From: Bacteroidales bacterium
GTDB lineage: Bacteria; Bacteroidota; Bacteroidia; Bacteroidales; JAEINX01
Assembly: GCA_016342645.1 (NCBI GenBank)
Contig: JAEINX010000017.1
Location: forward strand, 1 to 47,647
Length of the DNA stretch: 47,647 nt
Direction of reading: 5' to 3'
Numbering within the stretch: position 1 is the first letter of the stretch; each line of letters starts with the position of its first letter. Of the stretch, positions 9,752-31,700 are shown one piece after another. A program made the position numbers and the translations under genes. The notes under the pieces were generated by a model. The model saw only the letters and a list, made by a program, of their open reading frames with translations, had not been told where the DNA came from and searched no databases.

Positions 9752-11011
9752 TTATTTTTTATTTGTTTCTAATTGTTCAATACGTGCTTTTAATTCTTCA
9801 ATTATTTTCTGCTGCTCCTGAATTGCTTTTACCAGGGGAACTGTAAATTGTGCATAACGCAAACCATAGTAATCGGATTCATTTTGCGGTACATCGATTC
9901 CACTAAACTCAAATCCAAGGTTTTTAGCAGCTTGCTCAACTTCTTGTGCAATAAATCCGCTTTCAATTATTTGAGCTTTTTCATTAGTCTTTTCGTTCTC
10001 ATCTCTATCTAGAAATTCATCAATTGAATTTTTATCAAGTTTGTAAGTTACAGGTCGAAGATTGAGGATAAAATCAAGGCCTGCAACATTTTCTTGAATA
10101 TCTGTTTTAAATCTTCCGTCTGATAAAGTTGTCCAATCCACTTGCCCGCCAATGCTTGACACATTTGAATTTCCAATACGAACCTGATTTGAAGCAGTTA
10201 CAATAGATCCGTTTCCAATTGCGGTTGAGTTTTCAAGGGCTTCGGTTGCTACATCAGCATTATATCCTAAAGCAGTATTATAGCTTCCGGAAACATTTGT
10301 AAGCATTGTATGTTTACCAATTGCGGTATTTCTATTTCCTTCGGTACTATTAACAAGTGAACTCTCACCAAATGCAGAATTACCCTCACCTGTATTTAAA
10401 TAGAGAGAATTCATACCGACTGCAACATTAAAACTTCCACTCGAATTAAAGGGCATAACACCTTGTCCAATAGCGACATTACCATCGCCTACAGTATTAC
10501 CATGTCCTGCAAAAGAACCGATAAATACATTTCTATTAATTGGTAAGTTAGTATTTACTCCGGCACCTTCGCCAATAAATACCGAGTAACCATTGTCCAG
10601 AGCTTCGAGTGTGTTGCCTGAGAATCTCCATTTTTCTATTCCATTAATATATATTCTTATAGTATCTTCATCGTAATTTTGCTCGGTAGTGATATAAGTA
10701 TCATTGTCAGCATCAGAAATTGAATTATTGTTTGCATCATTAATAATCTCCACCCAGTCTGCCAGCATATTATTATAATACCAGAAACTTTCTGTTTCAA
10801 TATCGTAAACCAGTAAACCGCCTTGTGTTGTTCCAATTGCATTACGCTCGGAAGTTGAAACCCTTGGTACCAAAAATCCTTTATCGAAACTCGAAAGGTC
10901 GAGAATAGCTGAGGGATCAGGATCAGCACCTGTTTCATTTATTGCAACCTGTGAGAAGGTTACGCTTGTTAAAACTGCAAGCAAAACTGTTAGTAAAATT
11001 GTTTTTTTCAT
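9752..11011 (-). CDS. Fibre-like surface protein with C-terminal S74 auto-cleavage chaperone domain
   Basis: 419 residues. Signal peptide (1-20), then the N-module shared with two neighbours (QVAINETGADPDPSAILDLS, GFLVPRVS, FWYYNNMLADWVE), short YadA-head-like repeats (about 155-270: NVAVGMNSLYLNT, NTAIGKHTMLTN, NTALGYNADV), and a Peptidase_S74 / intramolecular chaperone domain from about 293. The motif LSDGRFK carries S297 and K302, the dyad used for self-cleavage in endosialidase and tail-fibre chaperones. A coiled coil ends the protein (IQEQQKIIEELKARIEQLE). In known members this domain trimerises a beta-fibre and is then cut off. The gene sits 11 bp after the 915-residue paralogue and 4 bp before the T9SS gene. 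The first 95 bp, including leader bases, are identical to that paralogue. How it crosses the outer membrane is unclear, as no T9SS tail is seen. Confidence 0.9.
   Translation of the reverse strand: MKKTILLTVLLAVLTSVTFSQVAINETGADPDPSAILDLSSFDKGFLVPRVSTSERNAIGTTQGGLLVYDIETESFWYYNNMLADWVEIINDANNNSISDADNDTYITTEQNYDEDTIRIYINGIEKWRFSGNTLEALDNGYSVFIGEGAGVNTNLPINRNVFIGSFAGHGNTVGDGNVAIGQGVMPFNSSGSFNVAVGMNSLYLNTGEGNSAFGESSLVNSTEGNRNTAIGKHTMLTNVSGSYNTALGYNADVATEALENSTAIGNGSIVTASNQVRIGNSNVSSIGGQVDWTTLSDGRFKTDIQENVAGLDFILNLRPVTYKLDKNSIDEFLDRDENEKTNEKAQIIESGFIAQEVEQAAKNLGFEFSGIDVPQNESDYYGLRYAQFTVPLVKAIQEQQKIIEELKARIEQLETNKK
10200..10560 (-). repeat. YadA-head-like repeats in the S74 fibre
   Basis: About six imperfect units of 16-18 codons with the pattern N-x-A-x-G-x-x-x-L-x-x-N-x-x-G. 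This is the shortest of the three repeat tracts in the operon. Confidence 0.6.
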
Positions 11012-11022
11012 TTTTGTAAGTT

Positions 11023-13770
11023 TTAATGTGTAACTTTATCAATTGTATATTCAATCTCAGCTCCATGTAATTGCCCGAAATCCAATTGGTCATGACCAAG
11101 AAATTTAGCTGTAATGTAGTAAAACCTTCCGTTGTTATCAATTGTTGCATAGCTTATGCTTGTGTCATCAAACTTTGAAATGTTAAAATAATTATATAGA
11201 ACATCATAACTTGCCATTATATCAGCAGATATTGACATCTCATCTTTTTTCCATAGCTTAACTTCAATCCACTCACCATCACATCTATAATAAATGCTGA
11301 ACCTGGTGACAATAGCTCCATCAGGCAGGCTGACAGGTGCTTTAATAGTTGATGTACCATTACCATCATCAGAGTCCATAAACCAGTAACCATTATCATT
11401 ATGAACCATTTTATCACCATCCTGGTTTGTAAACAGGCTAAAAGCTGCAGCAGGGATTTTTAAAATACAGGTTTTAGTTGATCCATATTTAAATTCGTCA
11501 GCTGTAATATCATCAGTTGCTACAATGTCATCACCAACTTCAAGATCATCGCTTATAACTGCTTTTCCTATTACTTCAAGTTTTTCACTTGGGGATTGTG
11601 TACCAATTCCAAGTTTTCCATTCACAGCTACAATATTAGATGAAAAATCTCCATAAATCAAAGGTGAAGCTGTGTTAGAATTGTCAATATATAGTTTATC
11701 GCTACCCTCTTCATTATACCCGGCATTACGACCCACAAAAACATTTCCACTACCTAATGCTTTATAACCTGCATAGCTACCAATAGCTGTATTATTATGG
11801 CCTTCAACATTTTTATATAATGCTCTATAACCATGTGCGGTATTTTCTCCACCTGTTTTGTTTAGAAACAGGGAAGACCTACCAAAAGCACTATTATTTA
11901 TACCTGTAGAATCAGAATATAATGCTAAAGTTCCAAAGGCAGAATTAGAAGCTCCATCTGTGATATGATATGCTGATTTAAATCCAAAAGCTGTGTTATC
12001 CATACCTGATGTGTTCATCGTTAAAGCAAAAGCACCCATTGCCGTATTATTATCAGCGTCCACGTTATGTTGCAAAGCATATGCTCCTACCGCGGTATTA
12101 TCCTTGCCTTCAGTATTCTCTATTAAGGACCCTATACCAATAGCTGTGTTTTGATTACCAAGAGTATTTGCATATAATGCTTTTGAGCCAACGGCAGTAT
12201 TTTCAGATCCATGTGTCGATAATGTGCCGCCAAATCCATTACTCATCAAAGCCGAATCACCAATTGCAACAATGTTATGCTGGTATGTACTTCTGAAAAG
12301 AGCTTTTGTACCGAGAGAAGTGTTTGAATATCCTGTTGTATTGTAGTATGATGCTCTATAACCAACAGCCACATTATTAGCTCCCATGGTATTGGCGCTA
12401 AGAGAATTGACACCAAAAGCTGTATTTTTATTACCATTGATATTTCCAGCAAGGGCTTTGTAACCTGTTGCAGTATTACATGTTCCTTCTGTATTTTCTT
12501 TAAGTGATTCTATTCCCAAAGCAGTATTAAAGTTATTTCCATTATCATTTATTCCTGCATCCATGCCAAGAAATATGTTAGAAGCATTAGTTTTTGCATC
12601 CGATAAATCATTGATTGATTCAACTCCCGGAGATACAGTTTCCCATGCTGCCAAACCTTCTTCATCGGAAGTAAGTACTTTTCCAACACCGGGATTGCCA
12701 CCGCTAATTTTAATTGTACCATTGATATCAACCTGGTCAGTTGAGAAATCACCACCAATAAGGGGTGTTGGAGTATCAGTAACATCAATAAAGAGTTTAT
12801 TGTTACTTGTATTTTGCGAACCGGCTGAGACTCCTATAAAAATACAATCGGAAACACTTGGTCCACCAAAAGAACCACGGCCTGCAAAAGCACCAATTGC
12901 AGTATTTCTTATGCCCGTCTCATTATTTTCATTTGCAGATTTCCCAATTGAGGTATTTGCAAAACCTGAGGTAATTGCACGGCCTGACTGATGGCCAATT
13001 CCTGTATTATTATTACCTGTTGTAAATGTGCCGGCCTCGTCACCTAAATAAACAGTGCTGCTAAAGGCTATTCCGTCACTCAGACCGTTAATATCAGAAG
13101 CATAAATCGTTGGGATTTCCCAGCTTGCAATACCCATAGCATCAGAAACCAATACTTTGCCAGATCCCTGATTTCCATCTGTCATCCTGATTGAACCATT
13201 TACATCAAGTTTAGCTGCCGGGCTACTTGTACCGATACCTATTTCTCCAGTTTCATGTTCTATAACAATGTCATCACGGTTGGTTGTTGAACCACTAATG
13301 GAAGCCCAATTTGCTCCGTTACTAAATATTAATGCATTACCGTAATAATTATCATCATGGATCTTTACAATGTTTTCCCAATAACTTCCAACAACCTCAA
13401 AAGGTACGTCAGGCGAACTTGTTCCAATACCCACATTTCCTGAAACGGAACTATACATATTATCACCTACAACAATCCAGTCGCTGTCAGCACCGCCACC
13501 TGACATTTCAACCCAATTGGCCAGCATATTATTATAATACCAGAAACTTTCGGTATCAATGTCATAAACTAATAAACCGCTTTGAGTTGTGGCTATTGCA
13601 TTACGCTCGGCGCTTGAAACCCTTGGTACCAAAAATCCTTTATCGGTACTTGATAGGTCGAGAATGGCTGATGGATCGGGATCAGCACCTGTTTCATTTA
13701 TTGCAACCTGTGAGAAGGTTACGCTTGTTAAAACTGCAAGCAAAACTGTTAGTAAAATTGTTTTTTTCAT
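11023..13770 (-). CDS. Long fibre-like surface protein with about 15 YadA-head-like repeats
   Basis: 915 residues. Signal peptide and N-module (1-88) are nearly identical to the genes at 9752 and 16372. Residues 89-200 are shared with the 738-residue paralogue (DNMYSSVSGNVGIGTSS, YWENIVKIHD, IEHETGEIGIG). A tract of about 15 units of 17 residues follows (about 410-690; NTAxGxxALxxNTxGxx), interrupted by one longer unit (AIGDSALMSNG...THGSE) also present in the paralogue. The C-terminus (about 760-915; ILKIPAAAFSLF, GYWFMDSDDGNG, YYRCDGEWIEVKLWKKD) is a separate beta-rich domain that I do not recognise; it has no S74 or T9SS signature. A trimeric beta-helical stalk with a binding tip is a reasonable model. 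It starts 50 bp after the propeller gene and is in the same transcription unit. Confidence 0.88.
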   Translation of the reverse strand: MKKTILLTVLLAVLTSVTFSQVAINETGADPDPSAILDLSSTDKGFLVPRVSSAERNAIATTQSGLLVYDIDTESFWYYNNMLANWVEMSGGGADSDWIVVGDNMYSSVSGNVGIGTSSPDVPFEVVGSYWENIVKIHDDNYYGNALIFSNGANWASISGSTTNRDDIVIEHETGEIGIGTSSPAAKLDVNGSIRMTDGNQGSGKVLVSDAMGIASWEIPTIYASDINGLSDGIAFSSTVYLGDEAGTFTTGNNNTGIGHQSGRAITSGFANTSIGKSANENNETGIRNTAIGAFAGRGSFGGPSVSDCIFIGVSAGSQNTSNNKLFIDVTDTPTPLIGGDFSTDQVDINGTIKISGGNPGVGKVLTSDEEGLAAWETVSPGVESINDLSDAKTNASNIFLGMDAGINDNGNNFNTALGIESLKENTEGTCNTATGYKALAGNINGNKNTAFGVNSLSANTMGANNVAVGYRASYYNTTGYSNTSLGTKALFRSTYQHNIVAIGDSALMSNGFGGTLSTHGSENTAVGSKALYANTLGNQNTAIGIGSLIENTEGKDNTAVGAYALQHNVDADNNTAMGAFALTMNTSGMDNTAFGFKSAYHITDGASNSAFGTLALYSDSTGINNSAFGRSSLFLNKTGGENTAHGYRALYKNVEGHNNTAIGSYAGYKALGSGNVFVGRNAGYNEEGSDKLYIDNSNTASPLIYGDFSSNIVAVNGKLGIGTQSPSEKLEVIGKAVISDDLEVGDDIVATDDITADEFKYGSTKTCILKIPAAAFSLFTNQDGDKMVHNDNGYWFMDSDDGNGTSTIKAPVSLPDGAIVTRFSIYYRCDGEWIEVKLWKKDEMSISADIMASYDVLYNYFNISKFDDTSISYATIDNNGRFYYITAKFLGHDQLDFGQLHGAEIEYTIDKVTH
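11730..12535 (-). repeat. 51-bp-period tandem repeat coding a YadA-head-like stalk
   Basis: About 15 units of 17 codons with consensus N-T-A-x-G-x-x-A-L-x-x-N-T-x-G-x-x. The units have diverged in DNA sequence but keep length, except for one longer unit near the middle. Tracts like this can gain or lose units by recombination with each other or with the tract at 16805-17410. Confidence 0.8.
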
Positions 13771-13820
13771 TTTAGTAGTTTTTAATTAACATTAATAAAA
13801 ATATAATTATTATTTGCTGT

Positions 13821-16370
13821 CTATCTATCTATTCCACATTCACCTATTTGAACATTTAACTTATTTCCCTGTTCTGCAACAAATCCGGGCCTCAGGTCGA
13901 TAAATTCTCCTGCCTGATAATATACATCGGTTCCTGCTCCCCCAACAATATGCCGTGTAGAAATTATGGAGTCTTGAGCTGTATAAACCTGAATTCCCGT
14001 AAACCCTGGAATACTCGGATCAGTTTGGTTTGTCAGATGATAACTTACAGGACAATCGGAACCAAAAGTAGAAACCCAAAGGCCTCTGCCATAAGTTGCA
14101 GCATAAATCAAGTTATCTTTAGAATTTATTTCCAATTCATGAACCATTACAGCCGGAAGCCCTGTGCTAAAATAGCTCCAATATTCTTCTCCGTTTTCCC
14201 TATTGAAAACGCCTATGTCGGTACCAATAAACATTGAGTTAGGAACTTCAGGATCAAGGGCAATGCAACTAACGGGTATATTTTCCAGGTTATAGCTTAC
14301 GTTTACCCAGTTATCGCCACTGTTCCAGCTTTCAAAAACTTTATTACCATCATCATAACCTCCAAGAGTTACAACAAAATGCGTTTCATTGGTTGGATCA
14401 ATCACTACATCTGTTATTGAATAAATATCTAATGGCAACCCACCTCCAATGTTTGTCCATGTATTTTGCCCTGTGAATAATGTAGTTGTAATCCATAAAT
14501 CATCAACCGAAAATGGTTCTATGTTTCCCCGGCTTGCAGCAAGCATAAGATTTTCATTTGTGGGAGAAATATCCATGGCTTTAACAAACTGGAGATCGTT
14601 CATAGGGATGACTTTATTAAAATCAAAACTTCCATCTAAGTAAAAAATAAGGATTTCACCTGCTTTGGCTGAAATAAGGCGGTCATTTGATACAGGCCTA
14701 AGGAGCAAAGGATTATTAAATAATTTATTGTGTGTATTGGTAATAATAGCATCAAAAGTAACTCCTCCGTCATTTGAAACCTCAATTATTCCATTTTGTC
14801 TCGAAGTAAATATATGATCAGGATTATCCGGCATGATAATACATTCGAGCCCGTCAGCTCCTCTAACATGTTCTACATTGGTACTTCCCGAATATTTGTT
14901 AACTCCATTATCCTGAGTTCCCATATAAACAAGATTAGTATTTGAGGTAGTAATCCCTATTTTATGGGGTTGCATAATTCCTAATCCAAAAGAAATATCT
15001 GACCAGCTTGTCCCCATATCGGTTGATTTAAACAAACCACCATCGCATCCGGAATATAAATCGTTTCCATTAAATATTAATTCATGAATATCGGCATGTA
15101 CATAGGCGAGTGTATCCCAATCGTCTCGCCACTGAGTTATTGCTGACCATTGATGTCCACGATAATCAGATTTCCAGATGTTGATTCCTCCAACGAAAAC
15201 CACATTCTCATCAGTTGGTGACACCTCAATTGCAAGATCATAACTTGCCTGAGTAGAATTACCAAATCCAAAAACATTAGAGGATAAAATATTAGGATGA
15301 AACGGCTGATAATAGCTTAACCAGTTTTGACCTCCGTTTTCGCTAAAAAAAACACCCCTGAAGTTATCTTTATCTCCCAATACTGCATACACAATGTGTG
15401 AATTAACAGGAGTTACAGCAAGTTCTATTCTGGTTCTTTCTGTCATATTTCCGGAGAAATTCCTTAATGACACCCAAGTATATCCTCCATCTGATGACCT
15501 GAATATTGAATTTTCAGTTGAAGCAAAAACAGTATCATTATCAACAGGATTAAATTCCACATCGTAAAATTCACCGCTTTCTACTTTTGGCCAAGTAACA
15601 CCGGCATTATTTGTATAATAAATTCCATCACTGCTTGTAGCAATGATATTATTACTATTTGCAGGATCCATTTTCAATTCAGTACCAAAAACAACATCAT
15701 CCCTATCGAAAGTTAAACCTGTTTGATTCCATGTAATTCCACCGTCAGTAGATTTCAAAACACCGATGCTTACCAAATCATCAGAATCACCATCGCCGGT
15801 TAAAATATAAACTGTATTAGGATCACTATGACTAACAACAATACCGGATATTGCCAAATTAATCAGATCATCAGTCATACAGGACCAGGTAATTCCCCCG
15901 TCAGTGGTTTTCCATAAACCTCCTCCGGCAGATCCTGCATAAATAATATCAGGATTCGTTGGATGAAAGGCTACCTCATTTATTCTGCCATTTCCGGGAT
16001 TCCACCCGCCCTGATCGGTTTCAGGATAAGGGTCAGGGTTATTTGTCCATGTATCAGGGCCTAATTCTGCCCATGATCCTGAATCAGTTTGTCCGCTTAT
16101 TACCCCTCCTTTTCTTTTCAAATTTTCATAGGCAATAAATGACATAGCACTGTTATTTAATCTTTTGCCATCCTTATCGAGCCTGTATTCAACAAAATTT
16201 TCCCATCTTTTAAATTGCTTATATCCCGTTCCTTTTCCTTTGTCTTTGTTCTTGTAGCGTTTCTCAGTTTCTCGTACAATTTTACCAAAATCTTTATTGT
16301 CAATAGATTGCTGGGCATTACTAAACAAAAACAAGAAAGTTATTATTATAATTAAACTAAGTTGTTTCAT
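13821..16370 (-). CDS. Exported BNR/VPS10-like beta-propeller protein
   Basis: 849 residues. Signal peptide (1-19, ending SNA-QQ), then many Asp-box/BNR blades of the form S-T/x-D-G-G-x-T-W (GGLWKTTDGGITW, VLKSTDGGITW, IFRSSDGGYTW, LFKSTDMGTSW), as in sortilin/VPS10 and sialidase-like propellers. The catalytic Arg triad of sialidases is not evident, so a binding or scaffold role is more likely than glycosidase. The C-terminus (about 775-849) has the DVYYQAGEFIDLRPGFVAEQ pattern of the short three-strand stack found at the C-termini of Bacteroidota exported proteins. It starts 1 bp after the stop of the 738-residue fibre gene (TAA-A-ATG), so the two are almost certainly translated together. 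The function is inferred only from the fold. Confidence 0.85.
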   Translation of the reverse strand: MKQLSLIIIITFLFLFSNAQQSIDNKDFGKIVRETEKRYKNKDKGKGTGYKQFKRWENFVEYRLDKDGKRLNNSAMSFIAYENLKRKGGVISGQTDSGSWAELGPDTWTNNPDPYPETDQGGWNPGNGRINEVAFHPTNPDIIYAGSAGGGLWKTTDGGITWSCMTDDLINLAISGIVVSHSDPNTVYILTGDGDSDDLVSIGVLKSTDGGITWNQTGLTFDRDDVVFGTELKMDPANSNNIIATSSDGIYYTNNAGVTWPKVESGEFYDVEFNPVDNDTVFASTENSIFRSSDGGYTWVSLRNFSGNMTERTRIELAVTPVNSHIVYAVLGDKDNFRGVFFSENGGQNWLSYYQPFHPNILSSNVFGFGNSTQASYDLAIEVSPTDENVVFVGGINIWKSDYRGHQWSAITQWRDDWDTLAYVHADIHELIFNGNDLYSGCDGGLFKSTDMGTSWSDISFGLGIMQPHKIGITTSNTNLVYMGTQDNGVNKYSGSTNVEHVRGADGLECIIMPDNPDHIFTSRQNGIIEVSNDGGVTFDAIITNTHNKLFNNPLLLRPVSNDRLISAKAGEILIFYLDGSFDFNKVIPMNDLQFVKAMDISPTNENLMLAASRGNIEPFSVDDLWITTTLFTGQNTWTNIGGGLPLDIYSITDVVIDPTNETHFVVTLGGYDDGNKVFESWNSGDNWVNVSYNLENIPVSCIALDPEVPNSMFIGTDIGVFNRENGEEYWSYFSTGLPAVMVHELEINSKDNLIYAATYGRGLWVSTFGSDCPVSYHLTNQTDPSIPGFTGIQVYTAQDSIISTRHIVGGAGTDVYYQAGEFIDLRPGFVAEQGNKLNVQIGECGIDR

Positions 16371-16371
16371 T

Positions 16372-18588
16372 TTACTTTGTCTTTTCGATTAATTGATCAA
16401 TTAGCTTTTGTTGTTCAATGATGTACAATGTTAATTCTTCGATTTTTTCCATCAAAAGCCTTTGTGTTTCTCCTATTTCCAAACCTGAATTGCTCATTTC
16501 TGAAGCTGACGGAATATTTGGTAAATGACCATTCTCATTAATAAATTCTTCCACTTCATCTAAAGGCATAAGTTTATAATCCTTTTTAAAAACATAATCG
16601 GGCCAATCTTCTTGCATGTCAACTCTAAGTTCCTCGCAAATTATTTTACCATCAACCGATAGTTTGTATCCGCTGGCAAAAGTGGTTCCAATTGCCACAT
16701 CTCCATTAATACTCAGGATATTTGAACTAAAATCTCCATAAATTAAGGGTGTGTCGGTTGAGGAATTAGAAATATAAAGTTTATTACTTCCTTCTTCATA
16801 CAAACCAGCCTCATGTCCAACAAAAATATTCCCTGAGCCTAAAGTATTAAAACCTGCGTGTCGTCCGATTGCTAAGTTATTACTACCTGTTTCATTGGAA
16901 TACAGACTCATTGAACCAAGGGCTATGTTATTGTCTCCGGAAATATTTGAAAATGCAGAAATATACCCGAGAGCTGTGTTATTATCACCCTCAGTATTAT
17001 CGTTTAAGGAGGAGCAACCAACGGCAGTATTTAAACTTCCTTCAATATTAGATTTCATTGATTCATATCCTAAGGCAATATTGCTTCGTCCAATTGTATT
17101 TGAATACATAGCTTTTGAACCCAGGGCAGTATTTCTTGTACCGTGGCTTTGCATGCTGGCGTTAAGTCCATTGTTAAAAAGGGCTGAATCACCGATTGCT
17201 ACCAAATTTGACCTGTCGGTATTTTTGTAAAGACTCCGAATACCAAGAGCCACATTTGAATTTCCTGTTTCGTTTGAATATAAGGCGGCATAACCAATTG
17301 CTGTATTTGCGTTTCCGCTTTCATTTTCAAACAATGAATAAGTTCCAAAAACTGCATTTCTTATACCGGAAATATTATGATTAAAGCTAAATTGCCCTGC
17401 ACTTGTATTATAATTACCACCATCATCATTAACTCCTGAACTGCTTCCAAGAAAAAGGCTGTAACCATCAGTTTTAGCGTCGTTTAAATCATCAATTTCC
17501 TGAACTCCAAGCGGAATATTTTCCCAGGAACCCAATCCATTTATATCAGATGTCATAACTTTTCCTGTTCCAGGATTTCCACCGGTAATTTTAATTTGTC
17601 CGGCAACTTCAAGTTTAGCTTCGGGAGTGATGGTTCCTATACCAACATTTCCGGAGTATGCATTTACTAATAGTTGAGGTGTGCCGGCAGTACTTCCAAC
17701 AGAAAAGCCTTTTGCATTTTCCGACCAAATATAGGCCGGTGTCATATCTTCCTCCTCATCACTAAGAAGCTTAATGTATGCATCTTCATATTGTGAAATA
17801 AGAGAAAGGTTTCCGTTACGCACATGTAGTTTTGAACTTGGATTAGATGTTCCAATCCCTACATTGCCTGAAACAGAACTGTAAATATTGTCACCTGAGA
17901 TTGTCCAGTCATTATCCGGCGTTGTACTTAAATCAGCCCATGAGGCAACTCCAAGGGCATTCGACATCATTACTCTTCCTGCGGCTTCATTACCATCAGT
18001 CATTCTGATTGAGCCATTAACATCAAGTTTGGCAGAAGGATTATGCCTGCCTATACCGATTTCTCCTGACAAATGCTCAATAACGATATCGAGGCGGCTA
18101 CCTGTTGATCCGCAAATTGAAGCCCAATTTGGCCCACTACTAAAAAACAAGGCATTACCATTATAACTATTATCGTGGATCTTTACAATGTTTTCCCAAT
18201 AACTTCCAACAACCTCAAAAGGCGTATTAGGAGAATTCGTTCCGATACCCACATTTCCCGAAACCGTACTATACATATTGTCACCTAAAACAACCCAATC
18301 GTTGTCTGCTCCTCCACCGGACATTTCAACCCAAGCGGCAATCATATTATTGTAATACCAGAAACTCTCTGTATCTATATCATAAACCAATAAACCACTT
18401 TGGGTCGTTCCAATTGCATTCCTTTCGGCGGTTGAAACCCGCGGTACAAGAAATCCTTTATCGGTACTTGAAAGGTCGAGAATTGCTGAAGGATCAGGAT
18501 CAGCACCTGTTTCATTTATTGCAACCTGCGAGAATGCTACACTTGCAAACATTATTATTAAAAATGCAAGTAAAATTGTTTTTTTCAT
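16372..18588 (-). CDS. Fibre-like surface protein with HLPNIPSA-type C-terminal tail
   Basis: 738 residues. Signal peptide, then the shared N-module (QVAINETGADPDPSAILDLS), a second shared region (SYWENIVKIHD), repeated GNVGIGTxxP segments, and about ten 17-residue YadA-head-like units (about 390-600). The C-terminus differs from both paralogues: DWPDYVFKKDYKLMPLDEVE, then ENGHLPNIPSASEM and a coiled coil (LLMEKIEELTLYIIEQQKLI). This tail is widespread at the ends of fibre-like proteins in Bacteroidota and probably trimerises or anchors. It follows the 79-codon small ORF by 10 bp and precedes the propeller gene by 1 bp. No T9SS tail is visible. Confidence 0.88.
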   Translation of the reverse strand: MKKTILLAFLIIMFASVAFSQVAINETGADPDPSAILDLSSTDKGFLVPRVSTAERNAIGTTQSGLLVYDIDTESFWYYNNMIAAWVEMSGGGADNDWVVLGDNMYSTVSGNVGIGTNSPNTPFEVVGSYWENIVKIHDNSYNGNALFFSSGPNWASICGSTGSRLDIVIEHLSGEIGIGRHNPSAKLDVNGSIRMTDGNEAAGRVMMSNALGVASWADLSTTPDNDWTISGDNIYSSVSGNVGIGTSNPSSKLHVRNGNLSLISQYEDAYIKLLSDEEEDMTPAYIWSENAKGFSVGSTAGTPQLLVNAYSGNVGIGTITPEAKLEVAGQIKITGGNPGTGKVMTSDINGLGSWENIPLGVQEIDDLNDAKTDGYSLFLGSSSGVNDDGGNYNTSAGQFSFNHNISGIRNAVFGTYSLFENESGNANTAIGYAALYSNETGNSNVALGIRSLYKNTDRSNLVAIGDSALFNNGLNASMQSHGTRNTALGSKAMYSNTIGRSNIALGYESMKSNIEGSLNTAVGCSSLNDNTEGDNNTALGYISAFSNISGDNNIALGSMSLYSNETGSNNLAIGRHAGFNTLGSGNIFVGHEAGLYEEGSNKLYISNSSTDTPLIYGDFSSNILSINGDVAIGTTFASGYKLSVDGKIICEELRVDMQEDWPDYVFKKDYKLMPLDEVEEFINENGHLPNIPSASEMSNSGLEIGETQRLLMEKIEELTLYIIEQQKLIDQLIEKTK
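16805..17410 (-). repeat. 51-bp-period tandem repeat in the first fibre gene
   Basis: About ten units of 17 codons of the N-x-A-x-G-x-x-x-L-x-x-N-x-x-G type (NTAIGYAALYSNETG, NTALGSKAMYSNTIG, NTAVGCSSLNDNTEG). One longer unit (AIGDSALFNNG...) occupies the same place as in the 915-residue paralogue. Confidence 0.75.
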
Positions 18589-22914: not shown

Positions 22915-24270
22915 TTAAACTATCCCTTGAGCAAGCATTGCATCTGCAATTTTGACAAAACCGCCAATATTTGCTCCTTTAACATAGTCGATATATTTAT
23001 CATCAACAGTACCATATTTCACACAAGTTCCATGTATATCTTTCATAATGTTTTGTAATCTTCCATCAACTTCTTCTCTTGTCCAAGAAAGTCTCAATGA
23101 ATTTTGCGACATTTCAAGACCTGAAACTGCAACACCACCGGCATTTGCAGCTTTACCGGGTCCGTAAAGAATCTTAGCTTTTTGATAAACTTCAACTGCT
23201 TCGGGAGTTGATGGCATATTGGCACCTTCTGAAATACAGAAACATCCATTTGCAACTAACATTTTAGCTTCATCTTCGTTGATTTCGTTTTGTGTTGCAT
23301 TTGGCATAGCAACATCACATTTAACACCCCATGGCCTAATACCTTCGTGGTATTCGCATCTGTATTTTTCGGCATATTCTTTAATTCTGCCTCTTTTTAC
23401 ATTTTTAAGATGCATAATATAAGCTAATTTCTCTTTACTAATTCCTTCAGGATCATAAATGAATCCTGATGAATCAGATAAGGTAACAACTTTTCCCCCT
23501 AATTCGGTAACTTTCTCACAAGCATATTGAGCAACATTTCCCGAACCGGAAATTGCAACAACTTTTCCTTCTAATGAATCACCTCTTGTTTTTAACATTT
23601 CGGCAGCAAAATAAGTAGCTCCATAACCGGTAGCTTCCGGCCTGATGCGGCTTCCACCCCATTCGCGGCCTTTTCCGGTCAAAACACCTGTAAACTCATT
23701 TCTAATTCTTTTATATTGTCCGAATAAAAAACCTATTTCACGTCCGCCAACACCGATATCACCTGCAGGTACATCAGTATTTGGGCCAATATGTTTACAT
23801 AATTCTGTCATAAAACTTTGACAAAATTTCATAACTTCATTGTCTGATTTTCCCTTAGGATCAAAATCAGATCCACCTTTACCTCCACCCATTGGAAGTG
23901 TTGTCAAACTGTTTTTATAAACTTGTTCGTAAGCTAAGAATTTCAGAATTCCAAGATTTACGGTTGGATGAAAACGTAATCCACCTTTGTAAGGCCCTAT
24001 TGCACTGTTCATTTCAATTCTGTAACCTTTGTTAATTTGAATTTCTCCTTTATCGTCAACCCAAGGAACTCGAAATAGAATAACTCTTTCAGGTTCTGCA
24101 ATTCTTTCCAAAATTTTTGCCTCTTTATATTGAGGATTTTCTTCAATAAATGGAACTAAGGTTTCAACAACTTCTCTAACAGCTTGGTGGAATTCTGTCT
24201 CACCTGCATTTTTTGCAATAATTTTAGCCATAAAATCATTGACTAATTGGTCATAAACATTGTTTGTCAT
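22915..24270 (-). CDS. gdhA: Glutamate dehydrogenase, NADP-type
   Basis: 451 residues, the usual length for hexameric bacterial GDH. It interconverts 2-oxoglutarate plus ammonia and glutamate in the cytoplasm. The glutamate/substrate part has GGLRFHPTVNLGILKFLAYE (about 90-110) and the catalytic-lysine loop LPMGGGKGGSDFDPKGKSD (about 124-142). The cofactor domain has VAISGSGNVAQYACEK (about 238-253, GxGNVA) and the conserved SEGANMPST. VPAGDIGVGGREIG is also typical of this family. NADP preference is inferred from family resemblance, not from a diagnostic residue. It is a single-gene unit with its own terminator; nothing around it suggests a nitrogen operon. Confidence 0.96.
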   Translation of the reverse strand: MTNNVYDQLVNDFMAKIIAKNAGETEFHQAVREVVETLVPFIEENPQYKEAKILERIAEPERVILFRVPWVDDKGEIQINKGYRIEMNSAIGPYKGGLRFHPTVNLGILKFLAYEQVYKNSLTTLPMGGGKGGSDFDPKGKSDNEVMKFCQSFMTELCKHIGPNTDVPAGDIGVGGREIGFLFGQYKRIRNEFTGVLTGKGREWGGSRIRPEATGYGATYFAAEMLKTRGDSLEGKVVAISGSGNVAQYACEKVTELGGKVVTLSDSSGFIYDPEGISKEKLAYIMHLKNVKRGRIKEYAEKYRCEYHEGIRPWGVKCDVAMPNATQNEINEDEAKMLVANGCFCISEGANMPSTPEAVEVYQKAKILYGPGKAANAGGVAVSGLEMSQNSLRLSWTREEVDGRLQNIMKDIHGTCVKYGTVDDKYIDYVKGANIGGFVKIADAMLAQGIV

Positions 24271-24400
24271 AATTTTCTTTGCCTTTGTATTTTAGATTAT
24301 TAATAATTTAATTTTTTAGCAATATTAGAAAATATTTTTCAAATACAAGAAAAAATATTTTTTTCGATTAATTGTTTATCCTTTATCACATAATATCGTT

Positions 24401-24408
24401 TAATTTTG
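24401..24408 (+). promoter_or_regulatory. -7 box before the PEP/pyruvate-binding protein
   Basis: TAATTTTG fits TAnnTTTG; a -33 element is not obvious. The leader to the ATG at 24483 would be about 68 nt. Confidence 0.4.
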
Positions 24409-24482
24409 TAAAATAGAAAAATATAATATTTAATTTTTATTGTTTTATATAGTGTTATAAATCAACATACAAATAAGTGGTT

Positions 24483-27400
24483 ATGGAAAAGCTTGAACAA
24501 TTATCGGGAAATATAGAAAAATTTCATAAAGAAAGCTTAGAACGCTTAAAGGAATTATCGGCAATAAACAAAACAACAAGCATTTTAAAACAAGGTAAAC
24601 CTGTTGATGAAATACTTCAACAAATTTGTCATATTTTACCTGACGCTTATCAATATCCTGAATTTACAACGGCAAGAATTAAATTTGACGAGAAAGAATA
24701 TACTTCACCGAAATTTGTTTTATCACCATGGAAACAAGAGCAAACTTTTGATACAATTGATAACAAAGAAGGTGTAATTGAAATTTATTATTTACAGGAT
24801 TTCCCGAATTATGATGAAGGACCTTTTTTAAATGAAGAAAGAGATCTTATAATAAATATTGCTAATTTAATTTCAGGCTTTCTCAATCGAATCACAGGTA
24901 AAGAGGTTTTAAAACAAAGAATTAAAAAAGAAGAAAGAAAACCGGAAACTAAATTGAAAGATAATTTTGTAACAAGTCGAAGGTTGCTACAAAAATTTCT
25001 CAATAAAAGTAATTCCGATCGAGATATTTATCACGATTTAATGCCTTTTAAGGTAAAAGAAATTCTACTTATTGCAAACTTATATGATGCATATAGTATT
25101 GAAAAAGAAGGGCGGTTCTCGGAACATGTTCTCGGTGAATATCAACAATTAAATTTGACTTCCGTACCAAGAATAACCGGTGTTTCATCTGCCGAAGAAG
25201 CTTTTGAGCAATTACATTCAAAACATTTCGACCTTATTATTTTGATGGCGGGTGTTGACAGAAAAACACCTATCATTATAGGGAAAAAAATAAAGGAAGA
25301 ATTTCAATATATTCCGATTTTCTTATTATTAAACTCTAGCGGTGATATAGATTTTTATGAAACCGTATCGAGAAAAGAATCAAGTATCGACAGAACTTTT
25401 GTATGGAACGGCGATTCACGAATTTTCTTTGCTATGATTAAATTGGTTGAAGATGCTATTAACATTGAAAACGATACTAAAATCGGAATGGTTAGGGTTA
25501 TTCTTCTCGTTGAAGATTCGCCTAATTATTATTCGCGTTACCTTCCATTACTTTATAAAATTGTTATGGAACAAACTAAAAGGCTCATAGACGATGTCAG
25601 CACTGATGAGCTTTATAAAGTTCTGCGACTAAGAGCAAGGCCGAAAATAATTCTGGCTTCAAGTTATGAAGGAGCAGTTAAAATACTTGATAGCTATGAA
25701 GAATATATGTTATGTTTGATAACGGATGTAAAATATGAAAAGGCCGGTAAAATTTATAGCAAAGCAGGATTTGAGCTTGTAAACTATATAAGAAAAAACT
25801 TTAAAGAAATACCGACAATAATTCAATCGTCTGAAAATTCCAATGCCGAAATTGCATATAAATTGAATACAACTTTTATTAATAAAAATTCGGAAACTCT
25901 AATACAGGATTTTGAAAGTTTTATTGTTCATTATCTCGGTTTCGGAAATTTCATTTACCGAGATGACTCAGGACGACAAATCGGCATGGCAAAAACATTA
26001 AAAGAATTTGAAAATCAATTAAAAACCATCCCGAACGAATCCTTGTTATACCATGCCCGAAAAAACCATTTTTCGCTTTGGCTAATGGCAAGAGGTGAAA
26101 TTCAGGCTGCAAAAATTCTTAGCCCTCATAAAGTTAGCGACTTTAAGAGCCCACAAAAAATTAGAGAAGTTTTAATTAGCGTTATTCAGAAATTTCGCAA
26201 TGAGCAGAATAAAGGAAAAATTATTCCTTTTGAAGAATCGGCAATCTTGGACGAAACAAACATAGTAAGTCTTTCAGACGGATCGCTGGGAGGAAAAGGG
26301 AGAGGCCTTGCATTTATAAACTCTTTAATTTACAATTATGATTTCTCAAAACATATTTCTAACATCAATATTTGCACACCTAAAACTTCTGTAATAGGCA
26401 CTGATGAGTTTGATTTATTCTTAGATAATAATAAATTACATAGCAAAATTCATAACATCAAAGATTATAATGCAATAAAAAATATTTTTATTGAGGCCAA
26501 ACTTACCGAAACACTTTCAAAACGTATAAAAGCAATACTGAAAAAAATAAAAAACCCTTTAGCTATCAGATCATCGGGGCTTTTTGAAGATTCATTAAAC
26601 CAACCTTTTGCCGGAATTTTTGAAACCTATTTATTACCAAATAATCATCCAAATATTAATGTAAGATTGAAACAAACTCTTGATGCCATAAAACTGGTTT
26701 TTGCCTCCATATATTCAAATGTAGCTCGCGGATACATCGAAGCCGTAAATTTCAATCTCGAAGATGAAAAAATGGCAGTAATTATTCAGGAAGTAGTGGG
26801 AAATAAATTTGAAAATACTTTTTATCCTCATATTAGCGGTGTTGCTCAATCGTATAATTATTATCCGTTTGCACACATGAAACCCGAAGAAGGTTTTGCA
26901 ATTGCTGCCATCGGACTTGGGAAATATGTTGTTGAAGGTGATAAAGCTTATCGTTTCTCACCAAAATATCCGGCAACCGAAATTAATACTCCTAAAGATC
27001 AATATAAAAATTCACAGCTTCAGTTTTTTGCTGTTGATTTGAAAAAAGAAAATGTCAATTTGCTTGAAGGAGACACCGCCGGACTTACTTTGCTCGACAT
27101 AGACGAAGCCGAAATGCACGGCAACTTAAAACATTGTGCATCGGTTTATGATGCCGATAATGATATAATTTATCCGGGAATAAATAAACCCGGCCCGAGA
27201 ATTATAAACTTTGCAAATATTTTAAAATATAATTACATTCCTTTAGCAAAAACCATTGAGGTTGTCCTTGATGTAGTTAAAGAAGCATTAGGCTCGCCGG
27301 TTGAAATTGAATTTGCAGTCGATCTGACAAAAGACAAGGGCAATAAAGCTTCGTTTTATTTATTACAAATTAAACCGCTAATAGGCTCTGCCCAGGATTA

Positions 27401-27938
27401 CGAAATTGATTTAGACGAAATTAAAAAGGAAAGCATAATTCTGTTTACCGAAAAAGGAATGGGAAACGGAATTCTTAAAACAATTCAGGATATTATTTAT
27501 GTTGATAATTCCCTTTTCGATAAATCACAAACCGAAGAAATGGCAAGTGAAATCGAAATATTGAATAATAGAATGGTAAAAGAAAACAGACAATATATTT
27601 TGATTGGCCCTGGAAGATGGGGAACCCGAGATAAGTGGATAGGAATTCCCGTAAATTGGCCTCAAATTTCTAATGCAAAAATTATAATTGAAACAAGCCT
27701 TGATGATTATCCTCTCGATGCTTCATCAGGTTCGCATTTCTTTCATAATGTAACTTCGATGAATGTAGGATATTTTTCTGTTCAAAGTTCAAGTTCTAAA
27801 AGTTATATCTCCTATGATAAACTTGATAATCAAAACTTGATTGAAAAAACCAAGTTTTTTAAGCATGTTCGATTTGAAAAGCCCTTAAAGGTTAGAATGG
27901 ATGGAAAAAAACGAATTTCTGTAATAACGATTGATTAA
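24483..27938 (+). CDS. PEP/pyruvate-binding protein with GAF-like and two receiver-like domains
   Basis: 1151 residues from the ATG at 24483; a GTG 6 bp earlier is also in frame. The N-terminal sensor domain (about 25-140; PDAYQYPEFTTARIKF, GPFLNEERDLI) resembles GAF-like modules seen in histidine kinases. The first receiver-like domain (about 190-300) lacks the phosphoacceptor Asp (FDLIILMAGVDRKTP). The second (about 338-495) keeps VEDS, D415 (LITDVKY), a Ser and the late Lys (FINKNS). A PPDK_N / PEP-synthase-like ATP-grasp domain follows (about 595-990; LGGKGRGLAF, and R696 in LAIRSSGLFEDS). The conserved C-terminus has GPGRWGTRDKWIGIPVNWPQ. The phosphohistidine swivel and the PEP-binding barrel of true PEP synthase are absent, so it is probably not a PEP synthase but a signalling or phosphotransfer protein. 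The family is known in Bacteroidota; the biochemical role is not established. Confidence 0.85.
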   Translation: MEKLEQLSGNIEKFHKESLERLKELSAINKTTSILKQGKPVDEILQQICHILPDAYQYPEFTTARIKFDEKEYTSPKFVLSPWKQEQTFDTIDNKEGVIEIYYLQDFPNYDEGPFLNEERDLIINIANLISGFLNRITGKEVLKQRIKKEERKPETKLKDNFVTSRRLLQKFLNKSNSDRDIYHDLMPFKVKEILLIANLYDAYSIEKEGRFSEHVLGEYQQLNLTSVPRITGVSSAEEAFEQLHSKHFDLIILMAGVDRKTPIIIGKKIKEEFQYIPIFLLLNSSGDIDFYETVSRKESSIDRTFVWNGDSRIFFAMIKLVEDAINIENDTKIGMVRVILLVEDSPNYYSRYLPLLYKIVMEQTKRLIDDVSTDELYKVLRLRARPKIILASSYEGAVKILDSYEEYMLCLITDVKYEKAGKIYSKAGFELVNYIRKNFKEIPTIIQSSENSNAEIAYKLNTTFINKNSETLIQDFESFIVHYLGFGNFIYRDDSGRQIGMAKTLKEFENQLKTIPNESLLYHARKNHFSLWLMARGEIQAAKILSPHKVSDFKSPQKIREVLISVIQKFRNEQNKGKIIPFEESAILDETNIVSLSDGSLGGKGRGLAFINSLIYNYDFSKHISNINICTPKTSVIGTDEFDLFLDNNKLHSKIHNIKDYNAIKNIFIEAKLTETLSKRIKAILKKIKNPLAIRSSGLFEDSLNQPFAGIFETYLLPNNHPNINVRLKQTLDAIKLVFASIYSNVARGYIEAVNFNLEDEKMAVIIQEVVGNKFENTFYPHISGVAQSYNYYPFAHMKPEEGFAIAAIGLGKYVVEGDKAYRFSPKYPATEINTPKDQYKNSQLQFFAVDLKKENVNLLEGDTAGLTLLDIDEAEMHGNLKHCASVYDADNDIIYPGINKPGPRIINFANILKYNYIPLAKTIEVVLDVVKEALGSPVEIEFAVDLTKDKGNKASFYLLQIKPLIGSAQDYEIDLDEIKKESIILFTEKGMGNGILKTIQDIIYVDNSLFDKSQTEEMASEIEILNNRMVKENRQYILIGPGRWGTRDKWIGIPVNWPQISNAKIIIETSLDDYPLDASSGSHFFHNVTSMNVGYFSVQSSSSKSYISYDKLDNQNLIEKTKFFKHVRFEKPLKVRMDGKKRISVITID

Positions 27939-28225: not shown

Positions 28226-28972
28226 ATGCTTGAAATTAAAAATATTTATAAATCATTTGGAGAACAAAAGGTTCTTCAGGGATTGAATATGTCAATTGAT
28301 AAGGGGAAAATATATACTTTGGTTGGTGGGAATGGGACAGGTAAAACTACTCTGTTTAACTTAATTACGGGCTTCCTGAAACCGGATAAGGGAGAGATTT
28401 TATTGAATAATAAACGGCTTGACAAGCATTCTCCGGTTTCAATTAACTCAAAAGGAATTACACGTACATTTCAGGATTTGCGGATTATTAACCAGCTAAC
28501 TGTTAAGGAAAACATTTTATTATCATTTAAAGAAAATCCGGGGGAGAGAATTTTTAATTCAATTCTACCTGCCGGAATTTTCAAGAAACAATATTTTAAT
28601 TTCTTTGAAAAGACAGAACAGATTATTGAAAAAGTGCATTTAGAAAATGTTAAAAATAATCTTGCGGGAGAAATATCTTACGGGCAACAAAAATTATTAA
28701 CGATTGCCTGCCTGCTTGCTAATGATGCCGAAATTTTATTATTAGATGAGCCTGTTGCCGGAATTGACAAAGAGAATTATATCCGAATTTATGATTTAAT
28801 TATTCAACTAAAGAAAGAAGGAAAAACCATCATTCAAATTGAACATAACCACAAATTTGTTGAAAGCCTTAGTGATGGAATCTGGTTTTTAAATGCCGGA
28901 AAAGCTGTGTTATTTGATCAATATAATGAATTTGTAAAGGATAGAATAGTAAAAGAAGTATATTTGAATTAG
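28226..28972 (+). CDS. livG: Branched-chain amino-acid-type ABC transporter ATPase (LivG-like)
   Basis: 248 residues, full length. Walker A GGNGTGKTT (34-42), Q-loop near 86-90 (TRTFQDLRI, the LivG-like form), signature ISYGQQKLL (near 150; SYGQQ in place of LSGGQ, as in this subfamily), Walker B ILLLDEPVAGID (about 171-182) and the switch His in IIQIEHNH (about 208). It would power import of branched-chain or related amino acids with LivF, LivH, LivM and a binding protein. Here only a broken LivF/LivM chimera follows (29756) and no LivH or LivK is in view, so the transporter is probably not functional unless the other parts are encoded elsewhere. The toxin-antitoxin pair starts 22 bp downstream. 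Confidence 0.88.
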   Translation: MLEIKNIYKSFGEQKVLQGLNMSIDKGKIYTLVGGNGTGKTTLFNLITGFLKPDKGEILLNNKRLDKHSPVSINSKGITRTFQDLRIINQLTVKENILLSFKENPGERIFNSILPAGIFKKQYFNFFEKTEQIIEKVHLENVKNNLAGEISYGQQKLLTIACLLANDAEILLLDEPVAGIDKENYIRIYDLIIQLKKEGKTIIQIEHNHKFVESLSDGIWFLNAGKAVLFDQYNEFVKDRIVKEVYLN

Positions 28973-28994: not shown

Positions 28995-29258
28995 ATGAAT
29001 GATATGAATTATCAACTAAATATTGCATACCCAGAAAAATTGCCTGATGCACTACATCTGACACATGAGCAATTTAAAGAAAATGCAAAAATGGCTATGG
29101 CTGCAAAGCTCTTTGAAATGGGAAAGCTTTCATCGGGTATAGCAGCTCAACTCGCAGGGGTTGACAGAGTGTTTTTTCTGATAAATTTACATAAATATGG
29201 TGTTAATATGATTGATTTGGATAATGATGAACTTGAATCTGATTTAAAAAATGCCTGA
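28995..29258 (+). CDS. UPF0175-family antitoxin-like protein
   Basis: 87 residues. The UPF0175 signature is clear: NAKMAMAAKLFEMGKLSSGI then AAQLAGVDRVFFLINLHKYG, the latter being a helix-turn-helix-like segment. Proteins of this family are found next to DUF3368 PIN-like proteins and are taken as their antitoxins. It overlaps the DUF3368 gene by 8 bp (29251-29258), so the two are coupled. The start is the ATG at 28995; the in-frame Met at residue 4 (MNDM) is another possibility. Confidence 0.85.
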   Translation: MNDMNYQLNIAYPEKLPDALHLTHEQFKENAKMAMAAKLFEMGKLSSGIAAQLAGVDRVFFLINLHKYGVNMIDLDNDELESDLKNA

Positions 29259-29742
29259 TAGAATTGTAATCAATACCGGACCAATTATTTCAATAGTTGC
29301 TGCAACGGGAAGTTTGGATGTTTTAAACAAACTTTATAAAGATGTTTATGTTCCTAATGAAGTAAACAGAGAAATTTCAGGGAGTTTGATAAAAACATTT
29401 GCATTGAAAGAATTTAACGAAGCAAGCTTTTTGAGAAAAGAAAAAACACCTGTGGATATTTCTACTATTTTAAAAAATACTTTGGATATTGGAGAGGCTT
29501 CGGTTATTCAGTTAGCTTTAAACAAAAAGATTCAAACGGTTTGTATTGATGAAAAAGTAGGCAGGCGCGTTGCCAGACTGAATAATTTATCTTTAATCGG
29601 CTCAACGAGTATTCTTATAAAAGCTAAAAATCTTGGTTATTTAAAATCTATGAAAAATGCTATTTCCGAAATGAAAAATAAGGGTATTTATTTGTCAGAT
29701 AATATCATAAATTTTGCATTGAAGCATACAAACGAAATATAA
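29251..29742 (+). CDS. DUF3368 PIN-like putative toxin
   Basis: 163 residues. The PIN-like core is seen in VINTGPIISIVAATGSLDVL (about 5-24; Asn in place of the first PIN Asp is common in DUF3368), a central LDIGEASVIQLA with the conserved Glu, and VCIDEKVGRRVARLNNLSLI with the third acidic site. By family it would be a ribonuclease toxin, but activity for DUF3368 members is less well proven than for VapC. It overlaps its UPF0175 partner by 8 bp and ends 13 bp before the LivF'-'LivM chimera, so the module splits what was probably a livG-livF pair. Confidence 0.83.
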   Translation: MPDRIVINTGPIISIVAATGSLDVLNKLYKDVYVPNEVNREISGSLIKTFALKEFNEASFLRKEKTPVDISTILKNTLDIGEASVIQLALNKKIQTVCIDEKVGRRVARLNNLSLIGSTSILIKAKNLGYLKSMKNAISEMKNKGIYLSDNIINFALKHTNEI

Positions 29743-29755
29743 TAAAGTATTTGAG

Positions 29756-30847
29756 TTGTTAGAAGTAAAAAATATATCATCAGGTTACGGCAAAAAGCAG
29801 GTACTTTACGATGTTTCTATGCAAATTAAAATGGGTGAGGTTGTTTTACTTACAGGAGGTAACGGTTCCGGAAAATCCACTTTATTAAAGTGTATATATA
29901 ATTTACTTCCATGTTGGACAGGTGAGATATTTTTTGAAGGTAAGAAAATAAACGGATTAAAACCATCTGATTTGATTCAAATGGGTATTGTTTATATTCC
30001 TCAAAAGGATTTTTATTTTGAAAACCTCACGGTTGAAGAAAACGGGACAGGTTTAATTTCTCTGGCTCATGCAGGCTTTTATGGGATTGGAGCTTATACT
30101 TCTGCAATTCTTTCTGTTGATTATGGTTTTCCATTTCTGGCAACCTTGCCGATAGCAATGCTAATAAGTGGAATAATTGCAGTATTTGTTTCGGTAATTG
30201 CCTTGCGAACGGTTGATGACTATTTTATTATTATTACTCTTGGAATTCAGGTTGTAGCTTTTTCAATTATGAATAACTGGATGGATTTAACCAATGGCCC
30301 ACTTGGAATTCCCGGTATTCCGGCTATTTCAATTCTGGGATTTGAGTTTGGCAGCAAAATACCTTTTCTAATTTTAACCTTATTTTTAACGATATTGGTG
30401 TTTTATATTCTAAGAAACATCACCAGATCACCTTTCGGCAGGATACTAATTGCATTAAGCGAAGACGAAATATTTACCAAAAGCCTTGGTAAAAAAGTAT
30501 ATCAGGCTAAAATTGCAAGTTTTACAATAGGTGCAATGTTTGCTGCAATTCCGGGAGTTTTGTATGCTCATTACATTAGCTACATTGATCCTACAAGTTT
30601 TACTATTGACGAATCCATTTTCATTTTATCAATTGTAATTATTGGAGGCATGAGAAATCTTTGGGGATCGGCAATAGCAGCAGCAGTATTGATAATATTA
30701 CCGGAAGCATTAAGATTTGTAGGTATGCCAAGCAACATCGCTGCAAACATGAGACAAATAATTTATGGTCTGGCACTTGTAATTATGATGTTTAAATATA
30801 GTAAGGGATTTATTTCAAAGTGTTATGTTGGGCAGGAAAATAAATAA
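29756..30847 (+). CDS. In-frame LivF'-'LivM chimera (probable deletion product)
   Basis: 363 residues from a TTG at 29756; no closer ATG exists, and MLEVKNISSGYGKKQVLYDV is the normal LivF beginning. Residues 1-96 are LivF: Walker A GGNGSGKST (34-42), GIVYIPQKDFYFENLTVEEN with the Q-loop. From residue 97 (about 30044) the sequence is LivM permease: GLISLAHAGFYGIGAYTS, then several membrane helices, DYFIIITLGIQVVAFS, the EAA-like loop and IIGGMRNLWGSAIAAAVLII. Missing are the LivF signature, Walker B and switch His, and the first one or two helices of LivM. The frame is kept across the join. Such a protein cannot hydrolyse ATP in the normal way. It is either a deletion relic or an assembly join; a working permease half is possible but unlikely. 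Confidence 0.85.
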   Translation: MLEVKNISSGYGKKQVLYDVSMQIKMGEVVLLTGGNGSGKSTLLKCIYNLLPCWTGEIFFEGKKINGLKPSDLIQMGIVYIPQKDFYFENLTVEENGTGLISLAHAGFYGIGAYTSAILSVDYGFPFLATLPIAMLISGIIAVFVSVIALRTVDDYFIIITLGIQVVAFSIMNNWMDLTNGPLGIPGIPAISILGFEFGSKIPFLILTLFLTILVFYILRNITRSPFGRILIALSEDEIFTKSLGKKVYQAKIASFTIGAMFAAIPGVLYAHYISYIDPTSFTIDESIFILSIVIIGGMRNLWGSAIAAAVLIILPEALRFVGMPSNIAANMRQIIYGLALVIMMFKYSKGFISKCYVGQENK

Positions 30848-30932: not shown

Positions 30933-31700
30933 TTATTTCTCTAACCACGCCTTAAAACTTTTCACTTTTTCGCGGCTAACGATAATTTCCTCATCATTTT
31001 TCCCTTTTAAAATAATTTTCAAGCGGCTGTTTGAATAGCTGATTATATCGGCAATTGCTTTAAGATTAATAATATATTTTCTGCTTACTCTGAAAAAATC
31101 ATCGGGATTTAAAAGGCCTTCGAGTTGCTCAAGCGAATAATCCAAAACATAGTTGTTATTTTCACTGGTTTGTAGAAAACTTGCTTTTTCTAAGGAATAA
31201 AAACAACTGATGTTTTCTACTTGAATGGATTTAATATGCTCGCCTACTTTTATAACAAAGCGGCTTTTGTATTCTTTGGTCAAAAGATGCAAAACCTTCT
31301 CGAAAGCAATATTTTTTGATGAAATATCTTCTGGATTTTTATCTGAATGAATTTTTTTAAATTTTTCGATTGCCGATGAAAGTTCATCAAAATCAAGAGG
31401 TTTTAAAAGATAATCTATACTATTTACTTTAAATGCTTTTATTGCATATTGATCGTAAGCAGTTGTAAAAATCACAGGACAGCTAATCATGCTTTGCTCG
31501 AAAATTTCAAAACTTAATCCGTCAGCTAATTGAATGTCCATAAAAACAAGGTCGGGAGGTGGATTGGAATTAAACCAGTCAACACTTTTTTCAACTGTAT
31601 TGAATTCCCCGAGTATCTCAATATTAGGGTCGTATTTTAGAATTAGTTCAAGCAAGCGTTTGGCTGCCAGTTGTTCGTCTTCTATTATAATTATCGTCAT
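30933..31700 (-). CDS. LytTR-family response regulator
   Basis: 255 residues. Receiver: ED at 7-8, phosphoacceptor D55 (LVFMDIQLADGLSF), T80, K100-P. LytTR domain about 150-252 (FVIKVGEHIKSIQVENISCF, FFRVSRKYIINLKAI, VSREKVKSFKAWLE). It is downstream of and in line with the LytS-type kinase at 31774, from which it is separated by 73 bp holding a long hairpin. The pair probably controls the nearby TPR/TonB receptor genes, but no target site was identified. Confidence 0.93.
   Translation of the reverse strand: MTIIIIEDEQLAAKRLLELILKYDPNIEILGEFNTVEKSVDWFNSNPPPDLVFMDIQLADGLSFEIFEQSMISCPVIFTTAYDQYAIKAFKVNSIDYLLKPLDFDELSSAIEKFKKIHSDKNPEDISSKNIAFEKVLHLLTKEYKSRFVIKVGEHIKSIQVENISCFYSLEKASFLQTSENNNYVLDYSLEQLEGLLNPDDFFRVSRKYIINLKAIADIISYSNSRLKIILKGKNDEEIIVSREKVKSFKAWLEK

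Follow-up and report, generated by a model that had tools for sequence, protein, structure and literature searches.

One open reading frame (ORF) in the window, that is, the whole stretch of 47,647 nucleotides analyzed here, joins the first half of livF in frame to a livM that lacks its first codons. By comparison with complete loci, it is probably the scar of one deletion within the locus of a Liv/Urt-type ABC importer. The join is present in the assembly, other parts of the importer are absent from that assembly, and relatives carry the complete locus. From these observations we infer a single event, the amount of DNA lost and a loss of function; one deletion and several in succession would be indistinguishable. 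The scar is probably real, natural and recent, and it probably lies in an accessory Liv-type locus and does not represent a working fusion. By itself it is ordinary. The parent locus matters more and deserves its own study.

The liv locus of the window and the parts of its fusion ORF
Feature	Position	Strand	Remarks
LivG-type ATPase, complete, 248 aa	28226..28972	+	Pfam profile 1-137; identity to L045, L030
UPF0175 protein, antitoxin-like, between livG and livF'	28995..29258	+	Pfam PF03683, 2.5e-24
DUF3368 protein, probable PIN-type toxin partner of the UPF0175 gene	29251..29742	+	Pfam PF11848, 1.8e-9; toxin role putative
livF'-'livM fusion ORF	29756-30847	+	TTG start, 363 aa, no internal stop
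livF' fragment, codons 1-96	29756..30043	+	Walker A and Q-loop retained; signature and Walker B gone
GGGACA at the join	30044..30049	+	matches neither parent gene
'livM fragment, about codon 29 to stop	30050..30847	+	86-89% identity to L028, L029, L030

The join between livF and livM

Pfam profiles divide the fusion ORF into two parts. Residues 18-105 match ABC_tran, up to profile position 80 of 137 only (4e-17), and residues 97-345 match BPD_transp_2 at profile positions 25-269 of 269 (7e-36). The last base that clearly belongs to livF is 30043 (after AAC), and DNA similarity to livM starts at 30050 in four loci of relatives (L028, L029, L030 and L031; 76-81% over 750-800 bp). At the position of GGGACA, livM of these four loci has TATTCT or TATTCC, and livF of L045 and L030 continues with CTTCA. 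Judged from these alignments, a join of two unrelated families within a few bases, with each part highly identical to a complete gene elsewhere, is far beyond chance.

The original prediction had assigned the first 96 residues to LivF and the following ones to LivM without a change of frame. The Pfam matches and the identity to complete genes bear this out, and the join had been placed correctly to within a few bases. The end of the ABC_tran match likewise agrees with the predicted loss of the LivF signature and Walker B. LivM was said to have lost its "first helix or two"; the loss is real, and its extent is about 27 residues, which corresponds to one predicted helix.

Relatives carry complete livG, livF, a middle segment, livH and livM, in this order and on the same strand (L029, L030, L031 and others). 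Compared with complete LivF proteins, the livF' product is 88% identical to that of L045, 80% to L030, about 75-76% to L029 and 68% to L031. The 'livM product is 89% identical to LivM of L028, 87% to L029, 86% to L030 and 80% to L031, and LivG of the window is 82% identical to that of L045, 77% to L030 and 63% to both L029 and L031. Because all three match the same locus type and order the relatives alike, a join of unrelated operons is unlikely. Alignment to complete Liv operons, which had been proposed as a check, thus traced both fragments to one type of locus, and a deletion running from livF into livM, as originally suggested, is the best reading.

A fusion of two different liv clusters was considered separately. 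It is ruled out, as both halves give the same order of near and far relatives.

In bacterial operons, deletion-fusion pseudogenes consist of two genes of one operon that are joined with loss of the intervening DNA, and homology is unnecessary for their formation. The window ORF is alike, with both parents complete and in the same order in the relatives. It differs in its preserved frame and six filler bases and is otherwise ordinary. In the proposed event, a single deletion would have removed the 3' half of livF, the entire middle (in relatives livK, other genes and livH) and roughly the first 27 codons of livM. Joining of the ends would have needed no extensive homology and would have left six filler bases, with the frame kept by luck (one chance in three). 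The predicted product is half an ATPase domain followed by a permease without its first helix. Comparison with relatives suggests that about 4-7 kb was lost.

An assembly artefact, in which two contigs from the same locus or from two strains were misjoined at 30043/30050, is unlikely. The assembly is fragmented, and no sister genome shares the join, both of which would suit such an error. Against it, there is no run of N at the join, and no repeat longer than 10 bp between the 1-kb flanks could explain the join: their longest common word is 10 bp, AT-rich and away from the join, and at the breakpoints the parent genes have no more than 6 bp in common. For a false join, k-mer assemblers generally require a common word of about 20 bases or longer. 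Such an assembler would have had no repeat here to mislead it, which argues against a repeat-driven error.

The nine bases GGGACAGGT at 30044-30052 (GGGACA and the next GGT) recur in the P-loop of livG, at 28334-28342, and this is the sole other copy in the window. Under a first-order Markov model of the 3 kb upstream, this word, which was chosen post hoc, arose in 8 of 2000 trials. Filler shared with the livG P-loop could have come from a brief template switch while the ends were being joined, which for a word picked post hoc is suggestive only.

Lost transporter parts and the age of the probable deletion

The source genome is a metagenome-assembled genome of 198 contigs that is 93.5% complete, and it is the only one of its genus in the comparison. 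Of the two ATPases that a Liv/Urt importer has, LivG is complete in it, and LivF' breaks off partway through its profile. Of the two permeases, one BPD_transp_2 gene is present, which begins at profile position 25. This gene, the fusion ORF, is the only BPD_transp_2 member in the whole assembly, which therefore contains no other such permease, LivH included. A related LivK query, which retrieves the LivK proteins of relatives at about 30% identity, found no match in the assembly at E 1e-3, and LivK is absent from the window as well. These results agree with the original statement that LivH and the binding protein are absent, and extend it from the window to the rest of the assembly. Their absence could partly reflect sequence missing from the assembly. 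Since LivH and LivK are missing, only one ATPase is intact and LivM is without its first helix, transport by this locus should be impossible. The fusion ORF is thus a trap for annotation: it would be called LivM or LivF in a cell that probably lacks such a transporter.

A selected fusion could also account for the open frame: the cell might make the LivF'-LivM protein and use it, for instance, as a partner that holds LivG at the membrane. Low nonsynonymous divergence in both parts would agree with this as well, but a recent event would be expected to leave it low anyway. LivF' stops short of the signature and Walker B, the permease part lacks its first helix, and its LivH and LivK partners are absent from the assembly. 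Moreover, the ORF starts with TTG, behind an insertion, and no other such fusion occurs among the genomes searched. We therefore regard a retained functional fusion as very improbable.

Changes assigned to the window branch and to its sister speak to the age of the deletion. On the window branch, 'livM has 7 nonsynonymous and 33 synonymous changes (sister, 4.5 and 28.5), livF' has 8 and 7 (sister, 7 and 10), and livG has 21.5 and 36.5 (sister, 16.3 and 39.8); the numbers are small and synonymous sites are near saturation, which makes this a coarse test. Nonsynonymous change is not clearly raised on the window branch, which suggests that the fragments evolved as working genes for most of it and that the deletion is recent relative to the divergence. 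The original prediction had put the deletion after decay of the operon, and on this point it is not supported: livG is intact, the fragments have neither stops nor raised nonsynonymous change, and apart from the genes inserted between livG and livF' there is no further lesion. A look for the same join in sister genomes had been proposed as a check. None of the 60 relatives searched has it, with the genus represented by this genome only, and the exact junction sequence has no match in IMG/VR.

Surroundings of the liv locus

In the nearest relatives (L045, L029 and L030), livG and livF adjoin without a gap or even overlap. The UPF0175/DUF3368 pair of the window is thus an insertion. In another locus, L081, an extra patatin-like gene occupies the same spot between livG and livF. 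The right edge of the inserted pair (28995-29742) is a degenerate repeat of the end of livG (GTATATTTGAATTA on the left, GTATTTGAGTTG on the right), and livF now starts with TTG, where relatives have ATG.

The liv locus of the window is flanked by a kinase gene upstream (24477-27938) and by a LytTR gene beyond the fusion ORF (30933-31700). The kinase gene is preceded by a glutamate dehydrogenase gene, and several relatives have this pair (22915-27938) conserved. In eight relatives that were inspected, no liv genes follow the kinase gene; the genes found there are dissimilar to the liv genes of the window. No relative in the comparison carries the locus at this site. The liv locus of the window therefore looks like an accessory insertion. 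A clean empty site was not found, as the genes past the kinase gene differ in all relatives compared.

Farther away, on the minus strand at 9752-18588, the window contains three large genes with near-identical starts (MKKTILL...VAINETGADPDPSAILDLS), which look like a tandem family that encodes secreted proteins.

A parent locus with conserved ends and a variable middle

The genes of the relatives resemble those of branched-chain amino acid or urea importers (LivFGHMK, Urt), with matches to LivG/UrtD, UrtE/LivF, UrtB/LivH, LivM/UrtC and a LivJ/K-type binding protein. However, all of these parts score below the NCBI curated (equivalog) cut-offs, so that the substrate is only putative. The parent locus also differs from Liv/Urt systems by additional genes between livF and livH, and the window copy differs by the lack of livH, livK and half of livF.

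The segment that was lost corresponds in relatives to more than livK and livH; it is long and differs in nearly every genome. The variable middle comprises the 3' end of livF, livK, other genes and the 5' third of livH; livG, livM, most of livF and the remaining two thirds of livH are conserved. Loci of this mosaic type, with identity steps inside livF and livH, are L028-L046, L076, L077, L079, L081 and L083. Four genomes of one genus (G486, G684, G719 and G615) illustrate the pattern. Identity among them is 87-93% for livG, 76-83% for livF and 88-93% for livM, as compared with 25-33% for livK. At the DNA level, livF is 81-96% identical over its first 300 bp, falling to 42-66% over its last 120 bp, and livH is mostly 36-61% identical over its first 240 bp, rising to 78-95% beyond. 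Such sharp steps on either side are what marks an exchanged middle. In addition, three loci (L036, L040 and L043) have four downstream genes in common, at 72-96% identity, and hence occupy the same site, with unrelated middles. On these alignments, exchange of the middle between genomes is well supported.

The middles carry radical SAM proteins of SPASM or B12 type, a TIR protein, RelA/SpoT-domain proteins, a protein that matches the Sll1717 P-loop ATPase family and a SEFIR model, metallophosphoesterases, and a GGDEF-domain protein next to a weak SLATT match. They also contain methyltransferases, an aminotransferase, a polyprenyl synthase and numerous proteins that match nothing. LivK and the radical SAM groups recur among the loci, but most of the other carried proteins have no relatives there. 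PADLOC returned only weak matches for the carried proteins (TIR, SEFIR, RelA and calcineurin-type effectors), and we therefore do not class the parent locus as a known defence system.

O-antigen and capsule loci have conserved ends and an exchanged middle. The parent locus resembles them in having conserved flanking genes around unrelated middles at one chromosomal site. It differs in that its ends are ABC-importer genes and its middle contains a binding protein, part of a permease, radical SAM enzymes and signalling- or conflict-type proteins. Such a combination of a conserved importer core and a swapped middle with TIR-, SEFIR-, RelA- and radical-SAM-type genes is unexpected for an amino acid importer.

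Exchange of this kind suggests another route to the scar, a sub-case of deletion by a different mechanism: recombination that normally swaps the middle might have failed and joined livF to livM. The middle has clearly been swapped in relatives, with identity steps within livF and livH, and some genomes have several copies of the locus. The breakpoints of the scar, however, lie outside the step zones (livF codon 96, as compared with about codon 170 onward; livM codon 28, as compared with the 5' third of livH), there is no trace of incoming sequence, and this genome has a single copy of the locus. A failed exchange is accordingly rather unlikely as the source of the deletion.

The locus is patchily distributed: at the thresholds used, it occurs in 5 of 395 genomes from the class, 14 of 396 from the phylum and 4 of 65 from the genus described above. 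One of the genomes of that genus (G684), which belongs to the same phylum and another class, has a livM that is 81% identical to that of L028. Patchiness together with high identity between distant genomes would be expected from repeated horizontal transfer and recombination. Two contigs of this genome, C31 (L031/L070) and C1 (L076), carry copies of the locus from distinct lineages, whose livM genes are 65% identical and whose middles differ; one of the two is the copy whose livM is 81% identical to that of L028, a near relative of the window locus.

A mosaic locus of this kind is not described in the full-text literature searched, a scope without most subscription papers, and it looks undescribed there. 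Tentatively, the chimera may be a relic of an undescribed modular system of Bacteroidota and their neighbours, in which LivG, LivM, most of LivF and the back of LivH form a constant importer core that is combined with exchangeable segments. With each segment might then come a separate ligand receptor (LivK) and the front of LivH, together with an enzyme (radical SAM or other) and proteins of effector or signal type (TIR, SEFIR-like/P-loop ATPase, RelA/SpoT, SLATT-like with GGDEF, patatin and metallophosphoesterase). One could speculate that such a locus is a ligand-sensing or self/non-self system and not one for plain nutrient import. The natural exchanges of the middle offer ready material for learning where in the transporter specificity is determined and what roles the carried genes have.

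Several relatives have broken loci as well. A transposase-like gene lies inside livK in one (L035:3459-4505), and another is located directly before a 5'-truncated livM (L044:14-1096); both labels are our reading of the sequence, with no database match. In a third (L043:5175-6052), livH is split into two frames.
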